64,000 bases of DNA from a virus, in the IMG/VR virus record IMGVR_UViG_3300030419_007002, positions 40,347 to 104,346 of that record; one strand, 5' to 3'. The position numbers and the translations under genes are program-made. Under the pieces are notes generated by a model, which was given only the letters and a program-made list of their open reading frames with translations, searched no databases and had not been told where the DNA came from. This document shows, in pieces, positions 35,492 through 53,300 of this stretch (position 1 is its first letter; each line of letters begins with the position of its first letter).

Positions 35492-37429
35492 TTAGTCATG
35501 ATAATCTAGTAACGTTAGCGTTGCATTACCAGTAGTAATTCCTGTGCACGGGTTAACGCCTATGTAAGCTATATAGTCATGATTTATATTACAATTGAAT
35601 GGATTTTGCGTTATCACTCCACTTACCCATTCTCCAGTGTTTATCAAGCATGTGGCACTAACTCCTTGTATTTTTACCCCAGTAACGTTATGGAAAAATC
35701 TTCCACTTATACCTAAGAGCGCAGTAGCGCTTACGGAATTAGAAGTTAAACCGCTAACCTCTGGCCTTCTTCCAGATATCTCCATCAAATCCCCAGTCAA
35801 ATTTCCAACTAAGTCGTGCATATCCGAAGTCATAAATCTAGAAGAAAAAGATTCTATTTTAAATATTTTTCCTTCATAAACTGAATTCAGCCTTGATGGT
35901 TCGTAATCATTACTTATTATTAAGCTGTCAGGCACTAAGAACGGAAAGCCTTCACCTAAGAATGAATTATTTATAATTCCCGTTATTATACTCACACCCG
36001 TCCTCACCCCAGAGAGATTTTCTCCAGTTATACTAGAATGATCTATTCCTAAATCGTAACCAAAATAATCAGTTAATCCTATATCTAATTTTTTATTAAG
36101 CAGGTGATCAATCACAATATTACCTTCGGTACCATATTTCATTGTGGTCGTCACTCGGTTATTATGAGATATAAACCTAATCCCCGTATCTCCCCTACTA
36201 GAGGACATTCCAGTTATACCTATCAATGGGGCAGCTTGGTAGGCATTTAAGCCAGTTATCCTAAAGCTTTGTCCGACGATTAAATTTTCTGTTTCTATTC
36301 CTGATATAGATGGAAGCACAGTAAAAATCTGATCAGATTCTTCGAAAATTTCATTTCCGCTGATGGTAATAGGTGAATTAATTATTTCTCTCGGTACCCT
36401 TATGTAAGCCCCCGTTCCATCTACAAAAGTTTTTTCTTTAGCGGGTATATACTCTGCAGATTCCCCGCTCCAAGCAGATCTAAATAAGAATTCAACCCCA
36501 GTTAATTGAGTCCCCGATATGTTTATTAAATCGTTATATTTGCCAGAAGAGGGCTCTATTATATTTATACCAGTATAAACAGAATGAAGCTCAGTCGGCG
36601 ATAAAGTACTTTCAGCTATTTGTCCACCGGTAATATTTATCAATTTAAATTTTTCTTTCTCTTTAATATTTGGCGGTATATTGAAAGACAAACCAGTTGT
36701 GCCTACTCCGGTAAATAACAATGAAGAGAGGGGCCTATTTCCAGAAACGGTGGACTGAACAATATAAGGATTACTTAACACTACGCTCGGTACCCTAGAC
36801 CCCGTAAATTCTAACTTGTCTATTTTATGAAGAGAAATACCAGATAAATCAACCCTAGTACCCGGAAATCCAGACAAAGGAGAAAAGCCTTTTACTTCAG
36901 TGTCAGGAACTCTTACTTCAAAATTTCCAGTTTGGCTTACTCCCGACTGACCGCTCAAGGTAGTGACTAACCCCCCCGTAGCATAAACGAATATTGGTCC
37001 AGAATTAGATTCATTAGGAACAGTAAACCTTATACCCGTTTCTCCATCTACGGAAAAATTATTAGAAAATGTCTCTGCTATTTGGACTCCAGTTATGTTA
37101 ACAAAATTTTCTCCGCTTATTAATACATCTTCCCCCCAATAAGCCCCAGTCGCTCTATCGAAACCAGAGATTTGTGGTTTATCTATGAACCTAAGGCCCG
37201 TACCGGATGCATAGTTTACTCCATTGTATAAAACAAATGTATTATGTTTTTCTAGACCATCGGGAATACGAAAACTTACAAAATTATGTGCGCTAGTAAA
37301 AGAACCACTGACTATGTCTGCCCGATTACCGCTTGTGCTATTAAAAAATATAGCCGTTTCAGGGGTATCATATATCCCCGAACCGCTAAGCGATAAAACG
37401 TCTCCTGCTATTCCACTTTTAAAAGCCAT
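35492..37429 (-). CDS. Tail fibre protein with tandem IPT/TIG domains
   Basis: A 645-residue protein made of repeated IPT/TIG beta-sandwich domains, each recognisable by 'I-x-G-F/I...S/G...G..V-x-I-S-G-x-x-L/F..I-T-G-V-x-F': ISGFDRATGAYWGEDVLISG, VKGFSPLSGFPGTRVDLSG, INIIEPSSGKYNDLINISG, LPSISGIETENLIVGQSF. There are at least five, with Gly/Ser/Thr-rich linkers and no transmembrane segment. In phage tails such arrays form side or central fibres that bind polysaccharides. It lies between two other TIG-containing genes. Confidence 0.75.
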   Translation of the reverse strand: MAFKSGIAGDVLSLSGSGIYDTPETAIFFNSTSGNRADIVSGSFTSAHNFVSFRIPDGLEKHNTFVLYNGVNYASGTGLRFIDKPQISGFDRATGAYWGEDVLISGENFVNITGVQIAETFSNNFSVDGETGIRFTVPNESNSGPIFVYATGGLVTTLSGQSGVSQTGNFEVRVPDTEVKGFSPLSGFPGTRVDLSGISLHKIDKLEFTGSRVPSVVLSNPYIVQSTVSGNRPLSSLLFTGVGTTGLSFNIPPNIKEKEKFKLINITGGQIAESTLSPTELHSVYTGINIIEPSSGKYNDLINISGTQLTGVEFLFRSAWSGESAEYIPAKEKTFVDGTGAYIRVPREIINSPITISGNEIFEESDQIFTVLPSISGIETENLIVGQSFRITGLNAYQAAPLIGITGMSSSRGDTGIRFISHNNRVTTTMKYGTEGNIVIDHLLNKKLDIGLTDYFGYDLGIDHSSITGENLSGVRTGVSIITGIINNSFLGEGFPFLVPDSLIISNDYEPSRLNSVYEGKIFKIESFSSRFMTSDMHDLVGNLTGDLMEISGRRPEVSGLTSNSVSATALLGISGRFFHNVTGVKIQGVSATCLINTGEWVSGVITQNPFNCNINHDYIAYIGVNPCTGITTGNATLTLLDYHD

Positions 37430-37430
37430 A

Positions 37431-39071
37431 TTAATTAAATCCTATTTCCCCCGCTCCTCCGCCTTGGTTTATTGGTTTTTTCATAACAAAGACTGAGTTT
37501 TCCCAAGTCGCGTCTCCTATGGGTGTTTGAACCATTATAGAATAAAGCCCAGCGCCCGGATCTGGAGAGCTATCATGCGGGAAGCTAGCTTCCGCGGGAA
37601 GATCGAAAGAGACTACGTCTCCGCCTTCTTCGTCTCCCCCGATGAAGGTTCCCTCCCCGCCGTAAGGATTAGAAGCCTCTCCTTCGTAAGTTATGACTTC
37701 GCTTCCTATTAATTTTATGCCAGTTGCAATACCTAAATTTTTTCCACTTAACACAATCCTACTACCGCCCCGATAAGAGTCTGAGGGCTTAACGTTTATT
37801 GTGCCTTTGTTATATATTTCCGGTAAACCCGGATTAACTATGAATATACCCGTAGAAAAATAAGATCCTCTTCCCGCGTTTTCAGATTTTTTGATATAAA
37901 CTGGTCCGCTTTTCGCCCCCAAGGGTATGGAACCAGTTATTGTTGTGTTATTTATTTTGTTAAATTGAGAATAAACCTCGCTCCTATCATTCGAAGTAAA
38001 ATAAACAGATAGCCCACTGGGGTCCAATATCCTAAAGTATCCACTCCCTCCGTACCCAGTGTTTTTTACATCATAATAATATAATTTATCCGGAGCATCA
38101 TCGTAAAGAGTTAGTTGCGCATAAGGTTGCCACGAGATCCCCGTATGGGAATACCCAGTCACACCAGCGATGCCGTGTTGAGAAAAACCAGAGTAATCAT
38201 ACAAACCAGAAAAAACTCCAGTAGACCCAGTGATTGCGTGTGCACCGTCTACCCTTTCTGAAACCGCAAATGCATTACCCGAGTTTGAGATATGCATGGT
38301 ACTAAAATAGTATGTATGATTTCTAAACAAGGTAATTATCGGGCAGCCATCGGCAATGCCCGTACTATATCCACTGCGTTGAATATAATATTTATTACCT
38401 ACCCCAGAGGATTCGCCCTGATTAACACGAATTTCATATAGATTTCCAGAATCAGAAAAATCAGAAAATAATTCATCGAAAAAATATTGTCCATATATAC
38501 CGACAGAATTACCAGTGTCTCCACTAGTTAAACTAAATCCTGTTATTTTAACTTCTGGAATAAAAAATTGATCATGGTATCCCGTTACGCCAGACTGTCC
38601 GAATAAAGAAATTTTACCATATGTATTTCCAGAGGGTATAGTCAACGTTATTCCCGTATTTGAATCGACAGTTAAATCGCAATTTAAATTGTTTATGGTA
38701 GCCCCAGTTATCCCAGAAAAACAATTACCCGTAACAGAAACCGTTTCTCCAGATATACCAAATATAGGAGCAAAAGAATTGATCCTAGGCGCAGGCACAA
38801 ATTTGTCGATAGTATAACCACTAACGCCGGTGGAAAAACCAGAGGCCCCGCTTATGTCCCCTGACGCGTAGCTAACCAAATTGTCAGATACGAGCCAAAT
38901 GTTATCCCAAGCAGCGTTTTCCGGAACCGTAGTCCTTATTAAATTCTTGTCTATTATTTGAAAATCAGATTCAGCAGAAGAAAATAAAACACGCTCTACG
39001 GGTAACAAATAATCTCCAGATATAGATATCTGATCACCTATGCTGCCGCTAATTTCCCCTAAAGTAATCAT
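37431..39071 (-). CDS. Tail fibre protein with tandem IPT/TIG domains
   Basis: A 546-residue protein beginning with a TIG unit (LGEISGSIGDQISISGDYLLPVERVLF) and containing further units (INSFAPIFGISGETVSVTG, SFSLTSGDTGNSVGIYGQYF, a C-terminal YRGGSRIVLSGKNLG). The middle (about 190-400) includes a beta-rich insert with YYIQRSGYSTG and YYFSTMHISNSGN. It is joined to the next upstream gene by a 4-base overlap and shares composition with its two neighbours, so the three probably form one fibre. Confidence 0.72.
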   Translation of the reverse strand: MITLGEISGSIGDQISISGDYLLPVERVLFSSAESDFQIIDKNLIRTTVPENAAWDNIWLVSDNLVSYASGDISGASGFSTGVSGYTIDKFVPAPRINSFAPIFGISGETVSVTGNCFSGITGATINNLNCDLTVDSNTGITLTIPSGNTYGKISLFGQSGVTGYHDQFFIPEVKITGFSLTSGDTGNSVGIYGQYFFDELFSDFSDSGNLYEIRVNQGESSGVGNKYYIQRSGYSTGIADGCPIITLFRNHTYYFSTMHISNSGNAFAVSERVDGAHAITGSTGVFSGLYDYSGFSQHGIAGVTGYSHTGISWQPYAQLTLYDDAPDKLYYYDVKNTGYGGSGYFRILDPSGLSVYFTSNDRSEVYSQFNKINNTTITGSIPLGAKSGPVYIKKSENAGRGSYFSTGIFIVNPGLPEIYNKGTINVKPSDSYRGGSRIVLSGKNLGIATGIKLIGSEVITYEGEASNPYGGEGTFIGGDEEGGDVVSFDLPAEASFPHDSSPDPGAGLYSIMVQTPIGDATWENSVFVMKKPINQGGGAGEIGFN

Positions 39072-40285
39072 GATATTTCTCTTTGCTTTACGTAGAGAAT
39101 TTTAGAATTAGATGGCCCGCCTATACCGTAAGCCCTGACCAATGCACGAGCATCAGCGGTCCAACCACGACTACGGCGGTGAATATCTTCTGGAATTTTT
39201 ACATATTGTATTTCAGATTCTTTTACGGCCCCGCTTATATCTGCATTAGAACCATTCATTTCTATTTCAGAGACAGTATCTAAACCAATACCATGTATAG
39301 TAATATATTCTCCCGGGTATACAAAATCTTTCGTTCCCGTGACAGAAAAATAAGTTATGCTAGGCGCTCTACCCACTGTAGACTGAGAAATATTTAATCT
39401 ACCCCCTACTTTACTATTTGGCTCTACCGAGTAACTCTTGTCTGTCAACTTACCAGATATTAAAAACTCATCATGTAAATTACCGTTAAAGTCATGGGTC
39501 TTTAAGCACAGGTTGACATGTTCACCAGAGTAAGGAATTTTTATCCCTGTGTCATTAGTATCTATAGTAAGATTTATATTCTTTTCTCCGAACCTTATTT
39601 CTTTAGGGTATATTTCTCCCACCCTTAAGCATGGTTCCACTGAGGATTCGAAGGAATAATCTAGGCCAAGGATATTGTCAGTAGTAATGCCGATGGGCTC
39701 GTCATAATAAAAATTATCTATAGTTAAGTCATCGTATTTTAGAAACTCTACTTCTTTTGGTAAAACATTATTTTCGCCATCTAAAACAACTGTCGATTCT
39801 TCTATTCCATGAAAAAAAGATATACTTGCTTTAACATCAATAGGGGTATTAGGTCTAGCGCTTAAAGAGTAAGATGTTAGATATCCACTTCTTATTATGT
39901 TTTCACCTATTTTGAAGGTCATGTTCGGAAACCCATCAAAATTTAAATTCTTATATAAAGGAAACGATGCATCGTCACTATTACCAATTTTTTCTTTTTC
40001 ATTTAAAAAATAATATTTTTTTAATGGATCCTGTCCAGTCAGAAGATAGCTTAATTGTATACTTCCCCTAGGGCTAGTATTAGCTAGCGGTTCTTCTGGA
40101 CTCCTTCTTTCAGTTAAATAAGAATTACTTAAGGAAACGCTATTAGAAATTTCTACAGAAGTTGCATATATGTGCTCTAACGGATAATCACCCTGCTGCT
40201 CCCAGCGGTCAATATCCCACCAAGGTTGATGCAAAGATGGCGCAAAAAATACCTTTACATCTTTAGATTGTAAATATTTACCCAT
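39068..40285 (-). CDS. Tail-fibre base protein with C-terminal IPT/TIG domain
   Basis: A 405-residue protein. The N-terminal 300 residues are beta-rich (IYATSVEISNSVSLSN, SIQLSYLLTGQDPL, SGYLTSYSLSARPN), compatible with a tail-tube-like or baseplate attachment domain. Residues about 305-395 are a TIG unit (YPGEYITIHGIGLDTVSEIEM). It is the first of three fibre genes and may anchor them to the tail. A ribosome site (AAGGAA) precedes the ATG. Confidence 0.6.
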   Translation of the reverse strand: MGKYLQSKDVKVFFAPSLHQPWWDIDRWEQQGDYPLEHIYATSVEISNSVSLSNSYLTERRSPEEPLANTSPRGSIQLSYLLTGQDPLKKYYFLNEKEKIGNSDDASFPLYKNLNFDGFPNMTFKIGENIIRSGYLTSYSLSARPNTPIDVKASISFFHGIEESTVVLDGENNVLPKEVEFLKYDDLTIDNFYYDEPIGITTDNILGLDYSFESSVEPCLRVGEIYPKEIRFGEKNINLTIDTNDTGIKIPYSGEHVNLCLKTHDFNGNLHDEFLISGKLTDKSYSVEPNSKVGGRLNISQSTVGRAPSITYFSVTGTKDFVYPGEYITIHGIGLDTVSEIEMNGSNADISGAVKESEIQYVKIPEDIHRRSRGWTADARALVRAYGIGGPSNSKILYVKQREIS

Positions 40286-40315: not shown

Positions 40316-41140
40316 CTATAGCTTGTATACTTCCTTGCTAAGAAGCTTATATTCTGCCCATAATTTATCTCTAACCCCCGGGTCCTCGTTAAAAGAAAGG
40401 CTCCCCTTTCTCCTAAAGTAAGTATAAGTTTCTACACCGTTAGCTGGACAAGCAAATATGCCAGCCTTATGCATCTCTTCCCACAGCAGAAGATCTTCAT
40501 GAGCCATTAAACCTTCATGAAATAATTTTCCGTCCTCTGGTATAAGGGATTCGTGCATGAGAGTTGCCCAAGGGCCGAACCTTTTATTCATCACGTTTTT
40601 TTTTGCTTGGTGAGTAGTCCTAATCCATTCTTTTGGGGTTTCGGCCTCTATAGTGTAGTCTCCTACTACAAATTTTTTATTATGTTTTTTAGCGAAACTT
40701 ATTAATCCCCTAGCTTTTCCATCGTGAACCTCGTCATCTGCATCGCAAAGCAATATAGCTGGATAATCTTTTCTATAATGATTTATTTCTTTAATTATTC
40801 TATTTTTTGCCTGTGCGGCGCTCTCCGCTTTGCTAAAATAATGGGATTCAAAAACGTCTGCACTACAATATTTTTTATTATGATCTATTCTATCTTGAGT
40901 TTCGTCTGTCGAGCCGTCATTTGCCAACAGAAAAACCCAATTTAAGCCACTCATGGACCGTTCTACGCTTTCCAAAGCTCTGGTCAACCACTCGTTAGCG
41001 TTATGGGCAGACATCACCACCTGAAAGCCTGTATTTTTCCATAGTTGTTCGGGGGCATTTTTATTTAAGTTTATAAATTTTTTATGCCTGTCTATTAGAG
41101 TTTCTTCGGGTTTTCTAGGCTTCTTCAGTACATGAGCCAT
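40316..41140 (-). CDS. GT2-family glycosyltransferase in tail fibre operon
   Basis: A 274-residue GT-A enzyme: VVMSAHNANEWLTRALESV (nucleotide-binding start), FLLANDGSTDET (DGSTD motif), and ILLCDADDEV (DxD metal site, D-A-D), followed by HEDLLLWEEM (the catalytic-base region ED). It heads the - strand fibre operon from a leaderless promoter. Placement next to fibre genes suggests that it glycosylates fibre proteins rather than host glycans, which is inference. Confidence 0.85.
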   Translation of the reverse strand: MAHVLKKPRKPEETLIDRHKKFINLNKNAPEQLWKNTGFQVVMSAHNANEWLTRALESVERSMSGLNWVFLLANDGSTDETQDRIDHNKKYCSADVFESHYFSKAESAAQAKNRIIKEINHYRKDYPAILLCDADDEVHDGKARGLISFAKKHNKKFVVGDYTIEAETPKEWIRTTHQAKKNVMNKRFGPWATLMHESLIPEDGKLFHEGLMAHEDLLLWEEMHKAGIFACPANGVETYTYFRRKGSLSFNEDPGVRDKLWAEYKLLSKEVYKL

Positions 41141-41209: not shown

Positions 41210-41779
41210 GTGCCATCTATATACGACATACCTAATTGGGTCTATTCAGCGACCCAGACATATGAGAAAAACTCTATAGTTTATTATCATATTGGGACTG
41301 CTGCAGAGAAAGAAGACCCCTATCATCCTAATGGCAAATATTATTATGCATCCGAATATTTAGACAAACATAATAATTGGAACCCAGTAGAATCACAGGG
41401 CAGGGCGTATTGGTACGGAAGGACGATCATGAATAATTTGAATATGCCTCATTTTTTTTGGTCGCCCTCTTATTCTGCCACGGTCTCTATGCAGCCAGCA
41501 AATAAAAGCATAGTGTTTGGGGACGGATACGAACAGAGTTCGTCAGAAAGCTTATCTGATCCACTCCTTATGCTAAACCTCAAATTTGAAAATAGGGATG
41601 ACTATGAAGCTGCTGCTATAAATCATTTTTTAGATAATGCTGGAGGAATTCAAAAATTTGTCTTTAGAGCTCCTCGCCCGTTTTCATCTAGAAAGGTTTT
41701 TGTATGTAGGGATTGGTCCAGTTCGTACACCTACAAAAACAATCATTCGATATCTGCTACATTCGAGGAGGTAATATAA
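41210..41779 (+). CDS. gpM-like minor tail protein with N-terminal carbohydrate-binding-like module
   Basis: A 189-residue protein starting at GTG 41210, with AAGGAAAAAGGAAA ribosome sites. The C-terminal half (residues about 95-189) matches lambda gpM (PF05939): IVFGDGYEQSSSESL, FENRDDYEAAAINHFLDN, FVCRDWSSSYTYKNNHSISATFEEV. The N-terminal 90 residues (IPNWVYSATQTYEKNSIVYY ... KYYYASEYLDKHNNWNP) look like a CBM5/12 module (W...Y..G/N..V....YY.A........W). gpM is normally about 110 aa and binds the tape measure end at the tail tip. Confidence 0.78.
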   Translation: MPSIYDIPNWVYSATQTYEKNSIVYYHIGTAAEKEDPYHPNGKYYYASEYLDKHNNWNPVESQGRAYWYGRTIMNNLNMPHFFWSPSYSATVSMQPANKSIVFGDGYEQSSSESLSDPLLMLNLKFENRDDYEAAAINHFLDNAGGIQKFVFRAPRPFSSRKVFVCRDWSSSYTYKNNHSISATFEEVI

Positions 41780-42366
41780 TGTCGTCATCGATATATAATA
41801 TAGAAACTTGGGATGGAGATAGAAATTATAATCCTAATGATATAGTTGAAAAAAACGGTCACTATTATTACGCGAAACAGCACATTGTTAGCTGTAGTAC
41901 GTGCGAACCCCATCATAACGATGGGGAATGGGCGGGATATATTAAATCAAAAAATGATTGGCGCCCGCATTTTACTTGGATTCCCTCTTACGATTCATCA
42001 ATTAATTTTAAACCAAGGGCAAGGAGAGTAAGATACGGAGATTCATCAGTAGAGCAAAGACTAAAGGACGGCCTAAATACAGATTTAATAAGCTTAAATT
42101 TAAAATTTGATAAAAGAGAAATAAATGAATCAACTGCTATATTGCACTTCCTTCATAAACGAGCCGCACAGGAACCATTTGTTTTTGATCCTCCAGCACC
42201 ATTTAATTTTCCAGATGGCGCCGGAGGGATGAGCAACAATACAAAACATTATAGAATCTTTTTGTGCAAAGATTGGTCGAGTACTTATAATTTTCATGAT
42301 AATTATACCATTTCTGCCACCTTTACAGAAATAGCAAATTACCATAACAAGGGGGCAATATTATAA
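41779..42366 (+). CDS. Second gpM-like minor tail protein with carbohydrate-binding-like module
   Basis: A 195-residue paralogue of the previous protein. ATG 41779 overlaps the preceding TAA (TAATG) and has a perfect GAGGAGGT ribosome site, which rejects the longer ORF start at 41713. N-terminal module: IYNIETWDGDRNYNPNDIVEKNGHYYYAKQ, then C-x2-C with histidines (CSTCEPHH). C-terminal gpM domain: RVRYGDSSVEQRLKDGL, ESTAILHFLHKRAAQEPFVF, FLCKDWSSTYNFHDNYTISATF. Two different gpM copies may form a heteromeric tip. Confidence 0.78.
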   Translation: MSSSIYNIETWDGDRNYNPNDIVEKNGHYYYAKQHIVSCSTCEPHHNDGEWAGYIKSKNDWRPHFTWIPSYDSSINFKPRARRVRYGDSSVEQRLKDGLNTDLISLNLKFDKREINESTAILHFLHKRAAQEPFVFDPPAPFNFPDGAGGMSNNTKHYRIFLCKDWSSTYNFHDNYTISATFTEIANYHNKGAIL

Positions 42367-42367
42367 A

Positions 42368-43672
42368 ATGAACAAACAAGAGGCAAAAGTTGCATCCAAA
42401 AGAATACGCGAGGAATCTTCTAAGCTTAACCACGCACCCTTGGTTACTCTTTTCGAGATAGATCTTTCAGAAATAGCTATTGACGAAACCCTATCTAGAA
42501 ATTTAAGGTTAGCATCGGCCACTCAAGCTTTAGCTGCTGTGCCGGATATGATATTTCGTTTTCATAATAATATGAGTTTACTAAAACCAACGGTGGGAGC
42601 AGGAGCAGTAATCGCTCCCCCCATATGGTTTGGGGGAGTAAAATACGTAGCCGCACCGATACAGGCGTCCGGCTTTGAGGTCAGCACAAAAGGTACATTA
42701 CCTAGGCCAAAGTTGAGCTTGACAGTAAACACAGAAGGGGTAGAATTTATTTCTATTTTAAAAAACCTAATGAAAGATTTGGGGGATTTATCGAACGCTA
42801 AGGTCACAAGGATCAGAACTTTTTCAAAATATTTAGACTACCAAAATTTTTATGTCACAAATGGGGATGGAAGCAAGGCTACCCCAGAAAGAACTATTGT
42901 AGAAAGAATTCCAGATGACTTGACTCCTGACCCCAATGCTACATTGCCGAAGGACATTTATTATATAGACAGAAAATCTATGGAAGATAAACAGTCTCTT
43001 GAATTTGAATTGTCTTCTATTTTAGAGCTAGACGGCATGGTTCTACCCTCTAGGCTCATGGCTCAGAGAAGGTGTACATTTAATTACAGAGGCGAAGGTT
43101 GTTGTTACGAATACGGACAAGATAATAATGATAACCAATGCTTTAGCGTAGCAGATTGGAAAAAAATCCATAGATCAACGGGGGCGTCTCATGAATTAAA
43201 TCTCCCAAATCTCGCCCCGCCAATGGCTAATGAAAAAGACGAACTGCTAGGTGGGAGTAAGGGGGTTGTGCGGAATAAAAAAACAGACAGCGGCGGAAAT
43301 GATATCAGCGATGATTTTTATGTTTCAAATAGTAACACCAACAAGCCAAACTGCTGGAAAAAGAACACGGTGTATCCGCCCAAGAGTGCAGTTTATATAA
43401 ATGTAGCTGGAATTAATTATTACTATGTAGCAAAATTTTGGGACTGTGATGCCGATGGTAACAACTGCGGCAACACAAGCGTCCCATCGAACGAACCCCC
43501 GCCTAATACTAAATACTGGGAACCCGACGTTTGCTCCAAAACGATAAAAGGATGTAAAATAAGATGGAATGCAGGTACGCCAGCAGGTATGTCATCTAGT
43601 AATCCATTTAAAGGGAGCGCGGGCGTTCATTTACCCTTTGGGGGTTGGCCCGGAATAAATAGAAAAGCATAA
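42368..43672 (+). CDS. L: gpL-like minor tail protein with cysteine cluster and carbohydrate-binding-like insert
   Basis: A 434-residue protein. The N-terminal part is lambda gpL-like (LVTLFEIDLS, FGGVKYVAAPIQASGFEVSTKGTLPRPKL), and the C-terminal domain has the four-cysteine pattern of gpL: RRCTFNYRGEGCCYEYG at about 236 and CSKTIKGCKIRW at about 388, ending LPFGGWPGIN. In lambda these cysteines hold a 4Fe-4S cluster. Between the cysteine pairs lies a CBM5/12-like insert (CWKKNTVYPPKSAVYI, YYYVAKFW, KYWEPD). It forms part of the tail-tip hub. Confidence 0.85.
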   Translation: MNKQEAKVASKRIREESSKLNHAPLVTLFEIDLSEIAIDETLSRNLRLASATQALAAVPDMIFRFHNNMSLLKPTVGAGAVIAPPIWFGGVKYVAAPIQASGFEVSTKGTLPRPKLSLTVNTEGVEFISILKNLMKDLGDLSNAKVTRIRTFSKYLDYQNFYVTNGDGSKATPERTIVERIPDDLTPDPNATLPKDIYYIDRKSMEDKQSLEFELSSILELDGMVLPSRLMAQRRCTFNYRGEGCCYEYGQDNNDNQCFSVADWKKIHRSTGASHELNLPNLAPPMANEKDELLGGSKGVVRNKKTDSGGNDISDDFYVSNSNTNKPNCWKKNTVYPPKSAVYINVAGINYYYVAKFWDCDADGNNCGNTSVPSNEPPPNTKYWEPDVCSKTIKGCKIRWNAGTPAGMSSSNPFKGSAGVHLPFGGWPGINRKA

Positions 43673-44389
43673 ATGATTTTACACAGAAACATTAAAGATA
43701 AAATCAAGGACTACTCCCTTAGGGAAAGCCCAAATGAATGCTGTGGTCTTATTGTTAATGATCAATCTAAGGGTGATATAGTTTTTTTATGTAAAAATAT
43801 ATCAGATAACCCTAGAGTTCATTTCGAAATAGACACGAAGGATTATTTAAGGGCGAGCCAATTAGGGGAAATAGTTGCCGTTTTTCATTCGCACGTGAAT
43901 GGAGATAGTCAATTCTCAGAGCTAGACAAGCAGGTCAGCAATGGGTTAGAAATTCAGTCTATACTTTACTCCGTAAAAGAAAATAAATTTAATGTATATT
44001 ATCCTAACGATTATACAAATGAGTATGTGGGAAGAAAATTTGAAATAGGAAAATCTGATTGCTTTTCTGTAATGAGAGATTTCTTTATGAAAGAATTAAA
44101 CATTTTTGTAAATAATTATCACAGAGATCAAGACTGGCAAAAGAAAACTCCTCACATATATGATCATAGTTATGAAAAAGAGGGGTTTATAAAGGTAGAG
44201 GATGGAACATTGAAAAAATATGATTGCATTTTATTTAAGTTTTTAAAAAATACAGAACATATAGCAGTTTATTTAGGCGATGATTTAATATTACATCAAC
44301 CCAGAGGAAAAGAATCATTAATAGAAAAATATTCCCCCTCTCTCGAGAGGAGAAAAAGTTACATCATAAGACATAGGAGTCTAGCATGA
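43673..44389 (+). CDS. K: gpK-like tail tip peptidase (JAMM + NlpC/P60)
   Basis: A 238-residue two-domain protein. N-terminal JAMM/MPN+ metalloprotease: E22 in SPNECCGLIV and H72-S-H74...S82-E-L-D85. C-terminal NlpC/P60: C130 in IGKSDCFSVMRDF and H196 in NTEHIAVYLGDD, with Q209. This is the lambda gpK layout. The first domain probably processes a tail protein, and the second cuts cell-wall peptides during DNA entry. It directly follows gpL and overlaps gpI by 4 bases. Confidence 0.9.
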   Translation: MILHRNIKDKIKDYSLRESPNECCGLIVNDQSKGDIVFLCKNISDNPRVHFEIDTKDYLRASQLGEIVAVFHSHVNGDSQFSELDKQVSNGLEIQSILYSVKENKFNVYYPNDYTNEYVGRKFEIGKSDCFSVMRDFFMKELNIFVNNYHRDQDWQKKTPHIYDHSYEKEGFIKVEDGTLKKYDCILFKFLKNTEHIAVYLGDDLILHQPRGKESLIEKYSPSLERRKSYIIRHRSLA

Positions 44390-45054
44390 AAAGCAATTTA
44401 ACAAAAATAAAACTTCACGGAAAACTCGGCAAGCAGGTGGGTAAAAATTTTAATTTATCTATCGGTAGCGTAAGCGAAGCCATGCATGCGGTAGATATTT
44501 GCTCTGGAAGAAAACTTTATAAAAACTTAATCGAAAACGACAAAAAAAATATAAAGTATCGAGTCCTAGTTAATGGAAAAGATATAATAGACCAAGACAA
44601 AACCCCCCTCGATCCGAATAAGCCGAACACAATAAGAGATTCAGACATAACATTAAATAGAAAAAATATAAAAAGCATAGATATAATACCCGTCGTAGAA
44701 GGAGCAGACTCCGGCTTTTGGGAAACTGCATTAGTTGTAGTAGGGGCAATACTTTTTATCGGTGGTATGTTTTATGGTTGGGGCGTTGCGACAGCAATGT
44801 TGGGGTCAGGGCTTTTACTACAAGGCATAAGTTCTATGATGATGGACCCGCCAGAGTTTGACGATTTTAGAGAGATTGAACAAGTAAATAAAAGATCTTC
44901 ATATCTTTTCAACGGACCCCAAAACACCGTAAATGAAGGAGGCCCAATTCCTGTTTTGTATGGCAGGCTTTTGATAGGGTCACAGACAGTAGGGGCGTCT
45001 TACGATATCCAATACGTGGACGCAGAAGAAGAAGGAAGTAATATAACCACATAA
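44386..45054 (+). CDS. I: gpI-like tail assembly protein
   Basis: A 222-residue protein. The N-terminal ubiquitin-like domain (TKIKLHGKLGKQVGKNFNLSIGS) and the hydrophobic hairpin FWETALVVVGAILFIGGMFYGWG ... LLLQGISSMM are typical of lambda gpI, which is needed for tail-tip assembly but may not stay in the particle. The end has FNGPQNTVNEGGPIPVLYGRLLIGS, which is conserved in gpI C-termini. It sits in the canonical K-I-J order. Confidence 0.9.
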   Translation: MKSNLTKIKLHGKLGKQVGKNFNLSIGSVSEAMHAVDICSGRKLYKNLIENDKKNIKYRVLVNGKDIIDQDKTPLDPNKPNTIRDSDITLNRKNIKSIDIIPVVEGADSGFWETALVVVGAILFIGGMFYGWGVATAMLGSGLLLQGISSMMMDPPEFDDFREIEQVNKRSSYLFNGPQNTVNEGGPIPVLYGRLLIGSQTVGASYDIQYVDAEEEGSNITT

Positions 45055-45060
45055 AATATT

Positions 45061-48000
45061 ATGGCAGAAGCACACGAAGGCGTAAAAGTTAATGGAGTAA
45101 AAAGCTATTCTGTGACAAGAATAGATACTCTTGATCTTCTTTCCGAAGGCCCGATAGAAGGCCTAGTAAGTGGAGAGCACACCTTCAAATCAGAAGAAGG
45201 AAAAATTGGATACACTCCCGACACCAGCCTAGGCGTAAGTGGTTATAAATATCAATCATGGGGAGGTGGCACATTAAACCCGAAAGGGGTATTGAGGTCT
45301 ATATACTGGAACCAAATGCCAATTGTAGATACGCAGGGTCTAGCAAACTTTCAAGATTTTACATGCGTAGATACGGAAGGATATCCTAATGGTAACCTAG
45401 ATTCCGGTGGGGGATCCAGACCAGAAACTACCAGAACCACCGCTATAAACGAAAGGCTAAGAGGACCTACTATAAGAGACGGAAAAAAAACTGGGGCAGT
45501 TTTCCCCAAGTATTATAGGATTCTCAATCCAGAGAGCGATAAAGCTCAAGTTAATATAAAATTAAATAGCCTCTTTAGAATAGAAAGAGATGAGCCGCAT
45601 GAATTTGGAGAACAAAAAGATACCTCTGTTCAGATAGCAATTTACTTTAAACCAATATTTTCAGACGGAACAGCTGAAGGCGTAAGCCACTATGCCCCAA
45701 CAGAAGGCGCGGTAAAAACAATCGAAGGCAGAGTAACTCACGGCTTTATTAGAAGCTATGAGATAACTTTACAGTATAAAGATTCTAATGGAAATGATTT
45801 AACAGATAATAATAACTTTTTGGGGTGGGAAATAAAAATAGAAAGACTCACGGGTGAATCTGAGACCGGTGACGTAAGGGACATCACAACTGTAGATTCA
45901 ATAACAGAAATATATGGATTAAAATTTGCCTATCCAAACTCAGCGATGGTTTCATCTAAATTTCAAGGCGAATACTTTAGCTCCATACCAGAAAGAGCAT
46001 TCGAAGCAAAAGGTATAAAAGTAAAAATACCCAGTAATTATGATCCAATAATGAAAAATTACGCCACCCCTCCAACCGCAAATGAAGCGGTTTGGAACGG
46101 GCTTTTCAAAGGGGAAATTACGGCTGGAGACGGCAACCATGAATTGCACTATACAGATAATCCAGCTTGGATTTTTTATGACCTTATAACTAACAGAAGA
46201 TACGGATTGGGAAAAACTGTAAGCCCGAACCTTATAGATAAATGGACTTTATATGAGATAGCAAGGTATTGCGACGAAATGGTTCCCGATGGCTTCGGTG
46301 GTTTTGAACCGAGGTTTGTATGCAATATGTATATAACCACCAGAGCAGAAGCGCATAAAGTTGTTAATGATATAGCATCTATTTTTAGGGGAATGGTATA
46401 TTATGCTGGAGGGAGCATATTCGCAGTGCAGGATTCTCCAAAAGAACCTGTTTTCCAATTTACAAATGCGAATGTAGAAGACGGAAACTTCAATTACCAA
46501 AACAGTAGCACGAAAGTAAGGCACACCTCAGCAGTCATAAGATATAATGATAAAACTAATTTCTATAGACCGGCCATAGAGTATGTAGAAGACGTAGACG
46601 GAATAAGAAAGTATGGTATAAGAGAAACTGAAATGTCAGCATTCGGCTGCACAAGCAGGGGTCAAGCTTCTAGATTGGGTAGATGGCTTTTGTTTACAGA
46701 AAATCTAGAAACAGAGAGCGTCACTTTTACAGCAGGGCTAGAGTCTACATTTTTAAAACCCGGAGACGTATTCGCTGTTTCTGATTCTAACAGAAATTCG
46801 AACAGGAGAGCCGGTAGACTAGCAGCAACACATGTCGGAACACATTCAGACGGAAGTGTTAGAACTACTTTAGTTTTTGACTCAAAAAAAGGAGATATAG
46901 ATTATACAATAGACCCTAATAGAATTTATAAATTATCTGTACTTACCCCCAGTTATCACTACGACCCCTCTATGTACGACGTAACTACTAGTGAAGATAT
47001 ACCAGACATAAGAAGGTCACAACTGCAATCTTGTCATTTTACGGGTAGCCAAATCGTTGCGGGAAATACGATTTATAGTACTGATTATTTTAATAATGAC
47101 GCAATACAATTATACACAGGCTTTAACACAGTAGATTATAAGCTAGATAAAGACTGTATTTGGATGATAGAGCCGGAGGGGACGAACTACAATGTTTCTG
47201 ATTTTGAAGAGTCTTTCACCACTGCTAGTAAATACAGAGTAGTTTCTATAAATGAAGTAGAACCTAATAAGTTCAGCATCGCTGGCGTAGAATATAAAGA
47301 TCAAAAATACTCATCGGTAGAGAAGGGTATAAGCTTTGACGACACAAACGTAGTTTTTACTCCGGGGCACCCCGGAGGAATAACAACCGTCGAACATACG
47401 CCTTGTCAAGATTGTCATACCAAAATAATAAGATACACGATAACACATTGTAGCTCTAATGCAAATCACACATGCAGAAAAGGATTAAATACATATTACG
47501 TATATTCAAAATACGCGGGAAACGGTAGCCAAGCTGAGAAATGGAAAGCCAGAGATTTCCTTACAAGATACAGCCTTTCTCAATTAGGGGCAGCTAGCGA
47601 GGATTCAGATATTACAGATGACAGTTTTATACCAGACGCTAAATATCTCATAGGTACTCCCGCTTGGAATGTACAACAAGGTAATCACCATGGAAGTTTT
47701 GTTCCAAGCCAAGAGGGGCATTACCAATTTAAAGCATTTGCGGTTAATGCTCATGGCACACATTCTTCTAGAAGTGCAAATACATCAAGGCACGTAGATA
47801 ATGTGCGCCCAGTCGAAGACGTTACAATTAATTCGTTAGCCTTTAGCGAAGATACTGACACAAATGCAGCTGGACAAGTAGTAGCAGATTGTGCGAAAAA
47901 AGAACCGCCGAATGACCCAACTAATGGATTAGGCTTTTCTTGGCTTGCGCAAATAGCAGATGGTTCATCTTTTAGCAGTAGCCTTTCGTATAGAATAACA

Positions 48001-49551
48001 TTTAGAGATGTGTCCTCCAATAATACCCCTAATGGAAATATATTTTATGAAATAAAAGATCATAAAGCTTCTCAAACGGAAGGAACTTATTTTTATATTT
48101 TTCCGTTCTCAACTCATGCCGTGGTTAATGGTGGACCAAGAAGGAATTTTGATATAGTTGTAGAAGCGCATGATGAATTTTATAATTCTTCTGCCGGAGG
48201 AAATGTAGAAAACGGAGATGGGAACTGGAGCAACAATCAAGGGTATGATATATTTAGAGTAACTGATCATAAAATACCTGCTCCAGTTTTGACAGATTGG
48301 AGCAGCACAAGCGAATGCACCAATACTACTTGGTGTACTGATGCAAATATAGAATTAAATGGTGATATAAGAGTTTTATTCACGAGGCTCAATCCGATAC
48401 ATAACGCGACCTCTAACCCCGGTGGATGGAGTTGTCTGGGAGGAGATATAGCTGGAGGCTATGTCTATGCTTGGCCAGAGAATGTAAACATAAACCCACA
48501 GACTCAAATCGCTGGAAAAACAATTTCCCAACTCCCATCTCAAGTAGAAGCTATGAGATTCCAAACTTCAGACAACCCTGTTTCAGTTACTCCTAAAAAT
48601 AGCAATATAAGATTAGCTAAAGAATTAAATGTATGTATGGGATTTTATGATAACTTTGGAAAAGCCAGATCCCTTACGGACTCTTCTTATAACGTAGAAG
48701 CAGATATAAATATATCCAATGATATAAAAATAACATTTAAAACAGACACTCTATATAGCTTAGTGGGTCAGGGAACAAACATATGGATCAGGATGAAGAA
48801 AAACGGAGACTGGATAGGAAGAGGGATAGTGTGTGTAGAAAAATTACCTCCGGATGGAGACGATGGTAGCGGGGCTATATATGGCGTTAATCAAGGTTTA
48901 TATGGGTTTAGAAGGTGGTCATGTGATTCACATGCTACATGGTATTTATCTCCATGGGGATCTCACGCTCTTATAACTTGGGCAGGCGGCGCCAATTATC
49001 CGGAGACACCAATTTGGAACTATTATTGTGGCTATGTTGAACCAAGGCTAGAAGGTGGCTTGTTAGAAAATAACAGTACCTTTACCAGCACTCAGATAAA
49101 TGCGGGGTTAGACTATAAAAGGTATAGAGTATATATAGCCACAGACTCCCTTCCCCCCGATGACAACTACGCCATAGTTGGTACAAATGCTAGAAATTCT
49201 GATTACAGAAGGCCAGATGACCCGATCGTAGGTTTTTTGAAAAATGCCTACGATAGCCCCGACCACGAAGATTCCTCTACTTGGATGAACCCCGATCCTG
49301 CTGGATCAACTTATGGCTGGGGGGAGGGTTATCCATTACTTCAGAGCAGCCCGGAATACGAACACCACCCAGCGGGCTTTGGGCAAGGCTTCGGGGGAAT
49401 GAAAAAAGAGAGAACATATTTTGACGTGCACATGGGTAGACTTATAGATGGAAGCTACCTAGATGAAGCGTACTTTAAGGTGGTAAGCAAGAGCTCAGCA
49501 CTTTCCGAAACGAATACTTGGGAAGATGCTAAGAATCTAGGAGATTGTTAA
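45061..49551 (+). CDS. J: gpJ-like central tail fibre / tip attachment protein
   Basis: A 1496-residue host-specificity protein. N-terminal gpJ domains: SVTRIDTLDLLSEGPIEGLV, LRSIYWNQMPIVD, then YDLITNRRYGLGKTVSPNLIDKWTLYEIARYCDE and FTAGLESTFLKPGDVFAVSD. After residue about 770 come fibronectin-III-like beta domains (HVDNVRPVEDVTINSL) and an unrelated, cysteine-containing C-terminal part (CQDCHTK, HTCRKG; CTNTTWCTD) up to the receptor-binding end. It caps the tail and probably contacts the receptor and triggers DNA release. Homologous over the first half; the last 700 residues are phage-specific. Confidence 0.92.
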   Translation: MAEAHEGVKVNGVKSYSVTRIDTLDLLSEGPIEGLVSGEHTFKSEEGKIGYTPDTSLGVSGYKYQSWGGGTLNPKGVLRSIYWNQMPIVDTQGLANFQDFTCVDTEGYPNGNLDSGGGSRPETTRTTAINERLRGPTIRDGKKTGAVFPKYYRILNPESDKAQVNIKLNSLFRIERDEPHEFGEQKDTSVQIAIYFKPIFSDGTAEGVSHYAPTEGAVKTIEGRVTHGFIRSYEITLQYKDSNGNDLTDNNNFLGWEIKIERLTGESETGDVRDITTVDSITEIYGLKFAYPNSAMVSSKFQGEYFSSIPERAFEAKGIKVKIPSNYDPIMKNYATPPTANEAVWNGLFKGEITAGDGNHELHYTDNPAWIFYDLITNRRYGLGKTVSPNLIDKWTLYEIARYCDEMVPDGFGGFEPRFVCNMYITTRAEAHKVVNDIASIFRGMVYYAGGSIFAVQDSPKEPVFQFTNANVEDGNFNYQNSSTKVRHTSAVIRYNDKTNFYRPAIEYVEDVDGIRKYGIRETEMSAFGCTSRGQASRLGRWLLFTENLETESVTFTAGLESTFLKPGDVFAVSDSNRNSNRRAGRLAATHVGTHSDGSVRTTLVFDSKKGDIDYTIDPNRIYKLSVLTPSYHYDPSMYDVTTSEDIPDIRRSQLQSCHFTGSQIVAGNTIYSTDYFNNDAIQLYTGFNTVDYKLDKDCIWMIEPEGTNYNVSDFEESFTTASKYRVVSINEVEPNKFSIAGVEYKDQKYSSVEKGISFDDTNVVFTPGHPGGITTVEHTPCQDCHTKIIRYTITHCSSNANHTCRKGLNTYYVYSKYAGNGSQAEKWKARDFLTRYSLSQLGAASEDSDITDDSFIPDAKYLIGTPAWNVQQGNHHGSFVPSQEGHYQFKAFAVNAHGTHSSRSANTSRHVDNVRPVEDVTINSLAFSEDTDTNAAGQVVADCAKKEPPNDPTNGLGFSWLAQIADGSSFSSSLSYRITFRDVSSNNTPNGNIFYEIKDHKASQTEGTYFYIFPFSTHAVVNGGPRRNFDIVVEAHDEFYNSSAGGNVENGDGNWSNNQGYDIFRVTDHKIPAPVLTDWSSTSECTNTTWCTDANIELNGDIRVLFTRLNPIHNATSNPGGWSCLGGDIAGGYVYAWPENVNINPQTQIAGKTISQLPSQVEAMRFQTSDNPVSVTPKNSNIRLAKELNVCMGFYDNFGKARSLTDSSYNVEADINISNDIKITFKTDTLYSLVGQGTNIWIRMKKNGDWIGRGIVCVEKLPPDGDDGSGAIYGVNQGLYGFRRWSCDSHATWYLSPWGSHALITWAGGANYPETPIWNYYCGYVEPRLEGGLLENNSTFTSTQINAGLDYKRYRVYIATDSLPPDDNYAIVGTNARNSDYRRPDDPIVGFLKNAYDSPDHEDSSTWMNPDPAGSTYGWGEGYPLLQSSPEYEHHPAGFGQGFGGMKKERTYFDVHMGRLIDGSYLDEAYFKVVSKSSALSETNTWEDAKNLGDC

Positions 49552-49552
49552 T

Positions 49553-50302
49553 ATGAATAATAATTTAATAATATTTTTAGAAAATGGAACTAAGAAAAAA
49601 TTATCTTTTCCGCTAAACGATAGCGAAGAAAAAGCTATAGAAAAGATGAATGAAATTTATGGTCACCTTAAAATAAAAAAATATTTTTACCTACCTCATG
49701 ATGAAAAATATTTAGATATAGAATCTTATTCTTTAGATAATTTTGAAAAGCTTAAAGTAGATGAAAGAATATCTATTATAAGAAATAAAATGTTACTTAT
49801 AAGAAGGAAAAGAGATTTGCTTCTTAAAGAGTTAGATTTGTCTTTCATGAGATCTTTAGAAGATGACTGTAAAATGTGTACAGAAAAAATAGTTGAATTA
49901 AAAAAATTCCTCAGAGATCTTCCGCAAAAATTAAGGTTTGACGAAATAGAAGATATAGAAGACTTAAAAGATTATAATCCGTTTAATAATATATTTGATA
50001 TACATGTGATACAACGGGGTAAAGAATATAAAACTCCTCCGAATATAAAAGTTTTACCTCCATCAGATCAATATTTTGGCTTCGAAGCGAAAGCTGTAGC
50101 CGAAATAGAAAATGGATCAATAAAAAACATTAAAGTTATTGACCCCGGTTGTGGATACGCCAGAAAACCAACGGTTATTATAGCCCCCCCGTTTGAAGGA
50201 GCTCCACCAAGCCATATCGGTGTTGCATCTGCTGGATTGCCACAAAATGCCACGGAAGACCTTAGAGGGATCGCTATGCTCTCTGATATTAAAATTGATT
50301 AG
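49553..50302 (+). CDS. Tail-associated protein with 'GYxxxPTV' motif
   Basis: A 249-residue protein. The first 150 residues are charged and helical (coiled-coil region RNKMLLIRRKRDLLLKELDL). The last 100 have two beta repeats, KEYKTPPNIKVLPP and GCGYARKPTVIIAPP, a motif recurring in structural proteins of large phages ('G.GYt.pPtV.i.pP'). It directly follows gpJ by one base, so it is probably a tail-tip component. Its stop overlaps that of the convergent tape measure gene. Confidence 0.6.
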   Translation: MNNNLIIFLENGTKKKLSFPLNDSEEKAIEKMNEIYGHLKIKKYFYLPHDEKYLDIESYSLDNFEKLKVDERISIIRNKMLLIRRKRDLLLKELDLSFMRSLEDDCKMCTEKIVELKKFLRDLPQKLRFDEIEDIEDLKDYNPFNNIFDIHVIQRGKEYKTPPNIKVLPPSDQYFGFEAKAVAEIENGSIKNIKVIDPGCGYARKPTVIIAPPFEGAPPSHIGVASAGLPQNATEDLRGIAMLSDIKID

Positions 50303-53300
50303 TATAAAAGACCACCCGGACGCTTCTCTTCTATAATGGTTCTTACTACAACCTGCTGCACTTTATCTGCTAGTGCTTTTCCTTGACCTTCTTGATCATT
50401 ACCGCCTTCAGTATTGGTTTGAGCATTTCCGGCTTCATCAATATTTATTGTGACACTAATATTGTTTGTCATTTCGCCAGCGCTTGGTCCACCTTCGCCT
50501 GTTCGTATTCCAGAATTATTGCCTACGTAACCGCCCTCTGCGAACTTCCAAACTTTGCCGCTATTCAATTTATTGAAAAACTCAAGGCCATATTTATCTA
50601 CTGCAGCCTTTTGCATTACGAACTCTCCATCAGTTAATAATGCTGCTATATCGTCCGTTTCCCCCGCTCTGGGAGAGCCCTTCGCGCGTTTGCCTATTTT
50701 CGGAGCCATGTATTGACCGAAGTAGCCTCTATTAACCGTACCCATCGGGCCAGTAGCACCAGAAGCGCTGAATCCCCACATGCCGCCTCTTGTATGTCTA
50801 GCCTGTATTTGTGAGCCACCCATTAGGCCTCTAGAATAATTTGGCATACCGCCAAGGTCTCCGCCCGGGCCAACCATTTTGTTATAGCTGCCTATATCAT
50901 TAGCTATAGAAGCTCTGGTTGCCGGATCCATAGCGTTATACAGGGGAGACCTAGGATTATTGATATCATGGTTCAATCTTTTTAGTTCTTTTGGAGATAG
51001 CTCTGCACCACTATTATATTTTTCTATTAATGTATTAGATCTTTTGGCTTGATAATTTTGTATTTGGTTAGCTAGACCCATAACGGCTAAAGACACACCC
51101 GCTTGTATAAACGCCCCTCTGGCCTGCCTCCTCTTTTGATCTTCAAAATCTTGAAGAGCTTGGGCTTTTTCTTTTTCAAAATCAGCTTTTTCTTTTATGT
51201 AATTTACAAGGTTTTCGTATCTTTCAAATTTTAATTCGTTCTGAGGGTTATCTGGATCGGTCAAAGCGAAAGCAGACATCCTAGGATCAACCTCGAAGTT
51301 TCCATGGGTTGGTCTTTTAGCATCATTATATACATATCTATTTATCATAGATGTTCCTTCTGGGGACTCAGTATAAACTGTCTTTCCAGTTTTTTCTGCC
51401 ATGCTCATCTCTTCAATATCTTTGTACTTAAGTAATCCACGGGCGGCGAATCCTTGCTTGTCATCGCCCATATGTACAAGGCCGCCAGTGTTCATCTTCA
51501 AAAATCTTCCGTTATTCAAAGACGCAAAGAACTCGGGGCCATAAGCATCTACCATACTTTTTCTTATGACGAATTCTCCAGCTTGGAGTCTAGCAGGAAC
51601 ATCATCCTTATACCCGCTACCCCCAGTAACCATGCCACCTTTTGCAAAGCCGGGGCCATATCCCATTGCTGCGCCCGCCATAGCGCCGAATAAACGCTGC
51701 ATAGCCATTTTCAACAGGCCACCTAGTATGTCTTTAGCTAAGTCTTTAAACAGATCTCTGAACGCGTCCTTGAGCTTCTTAGTGCCGAATATGGCTGCAT
51801 TTAAAGCGTCCGTTATGCCGTCCCTAAGATTAAGGGCTAGGGCATTTACCATGTTATCCAAATCATTGGTCATGTCTCTGTTATCGTATAACAGTGCGCT
51901 GCCGAAAGTTCTTCCTGCATTAGAAGCTCCATATCGTCCTTGCTGAATTGCTGTTTGATTTTCTGCAGCTATTCTGTTTCTAACGTCCTGAGTAGTACCT
52001 ATACCCATTCTGTATTGCTCTTCAGCTATCTCTCTCATAGCTGTTGCAATAACATGACTGTATGCTTGAGTTTTTTGTATTTCTGATAGCTTAGAATTAT
52101 TTAACTTTTCAGATGATTCAGCTAACTTTTTGTATAGTCTTATTTGCTCATCAACTGCTATGTTGGATTCTGCTATCGCAGTGCTAGCTTGCCACTGCAT
52201 ATCATTCAATTTGCTTTCAGCAGTAAATCCTTCCCCCCTAAAGGCGGGGCTAGTCATTGTCCGTGATGCGAAAGCTGCCCTTATCCCCTCGGCTGTCGTT
52301 AGTCTGTCTTTGCTCTTCTGAGTATTTAGCATCGTGCTTAACATGCCACCCCTAGTAGTTAAATCGCGCCTTAATGTTGCACCCAGCACAGGCGCCCGCT
52401 TAGCAAATTCTTTTGCAGCTTCTTTGTCCCCTTCTTTTGTGTTTCTATCAAGCACGTCTCCGGGAGGGGCATCTTCTGACATAGTGCCCTTATAGGCTCC
52501 GGCTAATTTCTTTATGAATTTGAACACTGGAGAATGCTCGAAGGTCCATGGTGCTTTGCTTGCGGCGCTTGCTTGTTCTTCTGAAATTTTCTTTCTAACT
52601 ACCGCCAATTTTGCTTCTAGAGCTTCTACAGTTTTAGTAAACTTCATGAAAGGGGACAGCTTCTCATTCCAAGTACTTTCGTCTATTAGGTCTCCGAAAT
52701 TCTCGTTAATAAGTTTATCCCAAGCTTCGTTGTTGCCCCGCCTAGGTAAGTCACCGAAGTGCTCGCTCTCTACTCTTGTTTTGGGGTCCGCTAACTGCAG
52801 GGTATGTATTGCTTTTGTGAGCCTTTGAGCTTCCGCTTGTAGCTTAGCTGTTCTTCTAAAATTTTGATTTGATAAGTTTTGAATTATTTTAACGGGGCTA
52901 TTTTGGCTCGCCTCGGCAGCATTAGCAGGAGTAGTTAGGTTTGCTCGCATTTGCGCCTGAGCCGCTTCCTTCTTTTCTACTTCTTCGGCAGCTTTACGAA
53001 CCGCCGCTTTTCTCTTTTCTTCAGCTTTGCTTGTCATACCTCCTGCAGACATAGGCAAAACTTCCGCTGCCAATGGGCCAAAGTTTTCATTGCCTCCTCC
53101 CACTCCTCTCATCTCCCGAAGTCTTTGTATTACCCCATCAATCATGGGATTAAGATTATCTACGGCAACGCCAAGATTATCAGCTACTTTACTCAAATCA
53201 TCGTCTTGCTTCTCCTGATTTTGAACCATTCTGTCCATTGATTCACCAACGTCGGGAGATCCATGCAGTCTACCATCTATAGATGATAACATGTCATAAG

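Follow-up and report, generated by a model that had tools for sequence, protein, structure and literature searches.

In solved lambda-type siphophage tail tips, gpM forms a ring of six copies and gpL a trimer whose iron-sulfur (Fe-S) domain lies on the outer surface (PMC10721106, PMC11101478); 23 residues separate the cysteine pairs of lambda gpL, C182 to C205 (PMC10721106). In the hubs of the Rhodobacter capsulatus gene transfer agent (RcGTA; PMC7296036) and of roseophage R4C (PMC10276861), an oligosaccharide-binding (OB) domain occupies the slot between the Fe-S segments. We analyzed a 64,000-nucleotide stretch (the window), bases 40347-104346 of the 104,346-base record IMGVR_UViG_3300030419_007002 from an uncultivated bacterial virus. 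It holds a lambda-type tail-tip operon at 41210-49551 on the plus strand, encoding gpM1, gpM2, gpL, and gpK-like, gpI-like, and gpJ-like proteins. The first three each carry one added module resembling carbohydrate-binding module (CBM) families 5 and 12.

Three related modules in consecutive tail-tip proteins

The original prediction, made from the sequence alone, had placed two gpM-like proteins and one gpL-like protein at 41210-43672, and both coordinates and identities were right. The gpM family PF05939 (Phage_min_tail, cut-off 39 bits) matches gpM1 over residues 82-189 at 68.2 bits and gpM2 over residues 65-141 at 55.4 bits, and the gpL family PF05100 (Phage_tail_L, cut-off 25 bits) matches gpL over residues 62-257 at 116.2 bits. 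The gpM2 model (predicted local distance difference test, pLDDT, 86.9) aligns with lambda gpM (8iyk_E) at Z 10.4, with a root-mean-square deviation (rmsd) of 2.1 over 109 residues. For the gpL model (pLDDT 77.5, residues 6 to 434), the match to lambda gpL (8iyk_L; Z 16.2, 222 residues aligned) holds domain by domain and not as one rigid body, since the rmsd is 10.5; against T1 9l9p_J, the values are Z 12.0 and rmsd 2.8 over 152 residues.

The three modules share the pattern W..Y..(G/N)..V..YY(Y/F).A/V..W, which takes the form W10..Y18..NSIV..YYYA..W68 in gpM1, W11..Y..NDIV..YYYA..W51 in gpM2, and W330..Y336..V..YYYVAK..W384 in gpL. The aromatic series W...Y...V...YY...W noted earlier is thus present in all three proteins. 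Both gpM proteins do have an extra N-terminal part, which is shorter than the 90 or so residues first proposed (gpM1, ~81; gpM2, 62-64). Profiles built without the window and without its nearest relative, contig L038, scored gpM1 at 38.0, gpM2 at 52.3, and gpL at 46.3 bits. The two profiles also assigned scores to 651 and 777 of 900 shuffled copies, the highest being 7.5 bits; the claim of one added module in each of three consecutive tail-tip proteins therefore stands on scores far above those of shuffles. In a six-frame scan of the window, only the gpM1, gpM2, and gpL places scored well, and the gpJ-like central fiber gave no module score above noise; on the whole 104,346-base record, the gpM-module profile found two places.

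The N-termini of gpM1 and gpM2 align with a score of 75, against a maximum of 53 among 500 shuffles. Single gpM-to-gpL pairs from the window were not significant (scores of 30 and 32, reached by 322/500 and 203/500 shuffles), and the kinship of gpM with gpL modules is visible with profiles only. In hhalign, gpM modules (n = 39) matched gpL modules (n = 52) at 91.6% (E 8.3e-7, one comparison), at 91.2% with the window and L038 left out, and at 84.9% with a second alignment, while the maxima were 6.8% for 27 control windows taken from the cores of gpM and gpL and 4.4% for 60 column shuffles. Judged by these comparisons, the gpM modules are related to those of gpL. Coordinates are collected in Table 1.

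Table 1. Tail-tip genes, modules, and domain landmarks in the window
Feature	Positions	Strand	Evidence or remark
gpM1, lambda gpM-type distal tail protein with N-terminal module	41210..41779	+	189 amino acids, GTG start
CBM5/12-like module of gpM1, W10 to W68	41237..41413	+	gpM-module profile 38.0 bits
gpM1 core, residues 82-189	41453..41776	+	PF05939
gpM2, second, diverged gpM-type distal tail protein	41779..42366	+	195 amino acids, PF05939
CBM5/12-like module of gpM2, W11 to W51	41809..41931	+	profile 52.3 bits; block pLDDT about 90-97
gpM2 core, residues 63-188	41965..42342	+	PF05939, structure match
gpL, lambda gpL-type hub protein	42368..43672	+	434 amino acids, PF05100
First Fe-S cysteine pair of gpL, C236 and C245, spacing 9	43073..43102	+	kept in 41/41 aligned gpL
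CBM5/12-like module of gpL, W330 to W384, F-W after VAK	43355..43519	+	profile 46.3 bits; block pLDDT 81-95
Second Fe-S cysteine pair of gpL, C389 and C396, spacing 7	43532..43555	+	gpL alignment
gpK-like protein (JAB and NlpC/P60), next gene after gpL	43673..44389	+	PF14464 2.1e-10, PF00877 5.5e-9
gpI-like tail assembly protein	44386..45054	+	phrog_32 8.5e-39
gpJ-like central fiber, 1496 amino acids	45061..49551	+	phrog_31 1.6e-140

Distribution among relatives

A gpL-profile scan of IMG/VR returned 402 relatives, the best 80 of which were kept and, together with loci found earlier, gave 84 distinct contigs. The module is present in 83/84 gpL frames and 80/82 gpM frames, the three misses (gpL of L018; gpM of L048 and L053) being frames cut by contig ends. 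All of the 77 gpM frames (of 82) that lie off a contig start score above 10 bits (77/77). The profiles were made from part of the 84 contigs; among gpM frames from contigs outside the profile, 44/46 exceed 10 bits, and the remaining two are the cut ones. The gpL count is biased because one of the two gpL search patterns held the module's last tryptophan, a bias from which the gpM count is free. Module presence is fixed in this phage group.

Among named phages, no record covered at least 80% of the query for gpM1 (0/240), gpM2 (0/38), or gpL (0/438), in line with the earlier statement that lambda homologues lack these segments. With relatives' proteins as queries, 7/1247 records for gpL and 1/353 for gpM reached this coverage, a measure of length and not of module content. 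Weak matches place relatives of the modules in fiber proteins of named phages, some of them annotated as carbohydrate-binding. Pseudomonas phage PACT201 has a match over the whole gpL module (E 0.7) beside genes annotated J. Scans with gpM2 alone and with gpL alone gave no match, nor did the first scan of genome contigs; the 11 stretches from a DNA pattern scan were noise, with a gpL relative in none. Three related phage contigs (L118, L119, and L120) come from one uncultured-bacterium bin (CAJQGZ01) and are probably phage sequence in a metagenome bin. In L092:2860-3404, a gpM module is split over two reading frames, by a frame break or a sequencing error. The 694-residue open frame at L122:1-2082 holds a gpM domain at residues 271-366, a further weak gpM-module match at 394-447, and a weak C-type lectin match at 66-148 (E 0.18).

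The slot between the gpL cysteine pairs

As originally proposed, the gpL module lies between the cysteine pairs of its protein, W330-W384 falling inside C236/C245 and C389/C396. The four cysteines are kept in 41/41 aligned gpL sequences, with a spacing of 9 in all 41 and then of 7 in 39 or 8 in two. The gap between the pairs measures 92-182 residues in the 39 members of the group (the window has 144) and 22-23 residues in two gpL proteins that have no module.

Among 20 genome-contig loci whose ends were read, nine have a long insert, nine a short loop, and two no cysteines. Of the long-insert loci, L118-L121 score 49.9-62.5 bits with the gpL-module profile, L131 scores 18.0, and L122 and L124 are weak at 8.7-13.5. 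The insert of L129 resembles the module by eye only, with no profile score above 8 bits, and was set aside. In L127, gpL (1388-2611) has a B_lectin-like insert in the slot (PF01453 15.7 bits, E 0.022, below the cut-off of 32.4), with two QxDxNxVxY-like stretches between the cysteine pairs. The gpL of L016 (4818-6008), from another lineage, has two tandem CBM5/12-like modules there, at 26.1 bits with the CBM_5_12 family PF02839, whose curated cut-off is 26.2 bits. In L012, L017, L132, and L136, gpL homologues stop before the Fe-S domain and have none of its cysteines.

The loop between the gpL cysteine pairs looks like a slot where different phages put different surface modules: CBM5/12-like in this phage, OB-type in RcGTA and R4C, and lectin-like in L127. 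The exposed Fe-S domain, described by the lambda authors as having an uncharacterized function, might thus serve to mount adhesion modules.

Relation to CBM5/12

CBM5/12 domains are very small three-stranded antiparallel sheets with no beta-sandwich. In the gpM2 and gpL models, the modules are small, confidently predicted units of short strand pairs plus a closing strand. The original prediction had proposed to look for a beta-sandwich in predicted structures: small beta modules are indeed predicted, and the sandwich itself is an unsuited test for this family. Compared end to end with a profile of four solved CBM5/12 domains, the gpM modules gave 85.7%, where the best of 60 column shuffles gave 1.5%; for the gpL modules the match was 71.6%, and the best of another 60 shuffles 3.0%. 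On these profile comparisons, CBM5/12 homology is well supported for the gpM modules and less strongly supported for gpL. Foldseek matched the gpM2 model to four chains of VhCOD, a chitooligosaccharide deacetylase with two CBM5 domains per chain (probability 1.00, E 0.026-0.053, ranks 38 to 50; the matched region of the chain was not given).

Single proteins are less telling. In the group, PF02839 matched whole gpM proteins in 5/10 cases (best E 7.4e-4) and whole gpL proteins in 0/9; isolated modules matched in 13/26 cases for gpM (best 5.6e-6) and 5/29 for gpL (best 0.032). The isolated gpM2 module of the window reaches 17.0 bits. The CBM5/12 identity first proposed thus holds as remote kinship at the profile level and not at the Pfam cut-off. 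We call the modules CBM5/12-like and make no plain Pfam claim because no window protein reaches that cut-off. One candidate equivalence, between the tryptophan in NNWNP of gpM1 and the chitin-binding tryptophan of ChiA1 (W687), was rejected, as it depends on gap placement and was unsupported by the MAFFT alignment.

Adhesion, structure, or chance

The reading we prefer, with confidence barely past even, is that gpM1, gpM2, and gpL form a ring-and-hub tip with one CBM5/12-like module per subunit and that these modules most likely make weak multi-point contact with glycans. In such a tip, of the lambda siphophage type, the distal ring would consist of gpM1 and gpM2 and the hub of a gpL trimer. 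By analogy with the solved lambda-type ring and trimer, the modules would sit at the tail tip, as the original prediction had it. If copy numbers are as in lambda (six gpM and three gpL), each tip would bear nine modules, of which the ring would carry six and the outward side of the hub three. Their weak, many-point contacts with surface glycans would hold and orient the tip while the central fiber finds the final receptor.

In CBM5, adjacent exposed aromatics (Y-W or W-W) contact chitin, and a tyrosine and the C-terminal tryptophan form the core (PMC8449059). The core positions are kept here: in gpL modules, the tyrosine position is aromatic in 52/52 and the tryptophan is present in 52/52; in gpM modules, the two are aromatic in 37/39 and 39/39. 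Compared with the gpM core, the gpM modules diverge more quickly, as surface-binding parts do, with a mean pair identity of 0.320 against 0.465 and the module more alike in 34/820 pairs (pairs not independent). For gpL, the corresponding values are 0.402 against 0.439 for the hub domain, with the module more alike in 232/741 pairs (again not independent); between the window and L038, the gpL module is 0.73 identical and the hub domain 0.66. We read the gpM modules as probably acting like adhesion parts, and the gpL module may be partly structural. From these sequence patterns, sugar binding by the modules, multivalent or otherwise, is plausible.

Several results weigh against glycan binding, or against the CBM5/12 relationship itself. 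The hidden Markov model search with PF02839 proposed at the outset failed to bring any window protein to the cut-off: gpM1 and gpL had no match, gpM2 reached a sub-threshold 14.2 bits, and a PF02839 search of the record itself found no match. Isolated gpL modules also match SH3_2 (3/29, best E 0.016) and ICL (1/29, 0.012), both with better best E-values than CBM_5_12. No CBM chain was among the 50 Foldseek matches listed for the gpL model or among the 50 VIA-align matches listed for each of the gpM2 and gpL models, the VIA-align result excluding nothing. The adjacent aromatic pair for chitin is absent from gpM1 and gpM2; across the group, the columns after YYY are aromatic in 1/39, 0/39, and 0/38 gpM modules, and those after VAK in 2/52 gpL modules (F-W in the window and L038). 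The near-hub conservation of the gpL modules suits a structural part equally.

These points give substance to a structural alternative, which we hold to be a real possibility, though short of even odds: the modules would be an aromatic-rich collar that stiffens the joint of ring and hub or docks the side fibers (35492-40285, minus strand) and binds no sugar. Keeping the core aromatics and not the chitin-contact pair is what it would predict, as is a gpL module about as conserved as the hub domain, and near-universal presence in the group is expected of an assembly part. Fiber-type genes adjoin gpM1 and in L011 likewise lie directly upstream on the other strand. A purely structural role sits less well with the faster variation of the gpM modules relative to their core, with the weakly matching relatives in fiber proteins, some annotated as carbohydrate-binding, and with a gpL slot that elsewhere holds other sugar-binding-type folds. 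That aromatic-rich insertions merely resemble CBM5/12 in composition is improbable. Every single-protein Pfam score in the window is below its CBM cut-off, and scores of this kind can mislead: with the gpM-module profile in the PDB, chains of the surely unrelated Nipah virus glycoprotein G (14 rows, best E 0.0017) outrank CBM5 chains (best 0.032), a match confined to the profile's C-terminal portion and taken as chance. With the gpL-module profile, no CBM5 chain came up in the PDB, and the rows were all weak, such as an F2-pyocin tail fiber (E 0.21). Chance likeness in composition would nevertheless have to account for profile matches to CBM5/12, and between gpM and gpL modules, that lie far above those of column shuffles and core windows.

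Should glycan binding by the modules hold true, the tail tips of a large group of uncultivated phages (402 IMG/VR loci) would possess a second means of attachment, multivalent in nature; the tip of this phage may hold several weak sugar-grips beside the main receptor binder.

Two gpM genes

The gpM1 stop codon overlaps the gpM2 ATG in TAATG. Two gpM genes also occur in L038 and L067; of the 84 contigs, 68 that extend 700 bases or more upstream have one gpM gene. In the gpM tree, gpM2 of the window pairs with that of L038 (100/99), and their gpM1 proteins pair likewise (92/82). The gpM1 proteins group with single-gpM contigs (93/87), deeper forks are weak, and the two gpM proteins of L067 do not group together. 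Since the pairs are common to the window and L038 and gpM1 falls with single-gpM contigs, a recent tandem duplication is rejected, and the pair is old or partly acquired. An extra loop before the last strands is found in gpM2 of the window and L038 and is missing from gpM1.

Two conformers of one gpM make up the lambda ring (PMC10721106), and RcGTA has odd and even subunits (PMC7296036). By analogy, gpM1 and gpM2 might alternate in a single 3+3 hetero-hexameric distal ring that requires both, an idea we regard as tentative and rather doubtful; two stacked rings would fit as well. In a 3+3 ring, two diverged genes, and not two conformers, would reconcile the six-fold symmetry of the tube with the three-fold symmetry of the hub, and three different sugar-binding surfaces (gpM1, gpM2, and gpL) would stand in three-fold register. 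Such a ring would be the lambda-type counterpart of the one predicted for ceduoviruses, and the gpM pair would show clearly how a duplicated or acquired gene can resolve a symmetry mismatch.

Neighboring genes

A GT2-type glycosyltransferase gene (40316-41140, minus strand; PF00535 1.1e-14) lies between the fiber-type genes and gpM1. For the fibers labeled TIG in the original prediction, Pfam gave no domain match behind that label. A tape-measure-like gene of 3050 residues lies on the minus strand (50299-59451), downstream of the gpJ-like gene, and has four GF[IV]PNF motifs at residues 56, 143, 412, and 489. In lambda, H precedes M.

Comparison with known systems

Lambda gpM and gpL share with this phage the core folds (Z 10.4 and Z 16.2) and four cysteines spaced 9 and 7; they have no such modules, and the gpL loop is 23 residues long compared with 144 here. 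A similar layout is that of the RcGTA tail tip, where sugar-binding-type domains likewise sit on the distal ring (six) and on the hub (three), between Fe-S segments; its authors count 21 such sites per tail (PMC7296036). There, the domains are OB-type and inserted in the distal tail protein, which one gene encodes, whereas in this phage they are CBM5/12-like and N-terminal in gpM, which has two genes. Marine roseophage R4C has the same hub arrangement, with Fe-S segments at 142-161 and 244-266 and the OB domain at 162-243 between them, and an insertion domain in its distal tail protein; it differs in fold and in that a megatron takes the place of the separate I and J proteins (PMC10276861).

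Ceduoviruses c2 and bIL67 also encode two tandem distal-ring-type proteins, predicted to form an alternating hetero-hexamer above a trimeric hub, with CBMs on all of these proteins; these are Hcp-like and VgrG-like proteins of Gram-positive phages, known from prediction only, and not gpM or gpL (PMC12474359). The evolved distal tail proteins (Dits) of Gram-positive siphophages also carry CBMs, but of other families (BppA or CBM4-like), in or beside a galectin domain that gpM does not have (PMC7291167, PMC8540738). By the definition of an evolved Dit, a distal tail protein with a CBM, gpM is a distal tail protein and its module is CBM-like only. The gpM-like distal tail protein of Alishewanella phage LSH1, gp24, likewise bears a separate decoration at its N-terminus; this decoration is likened to galactose-binding folds, and the hub has no Fe-S cysteines (PMC13243795). 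In a search of open-license papers, we found no description of CBM5/12 modules in gpM- or gpL-type proteins. What is new at this locus is the presence of CBM5/12-like modules in lambda-type gpM and gpL, in a layout already known with other folds.

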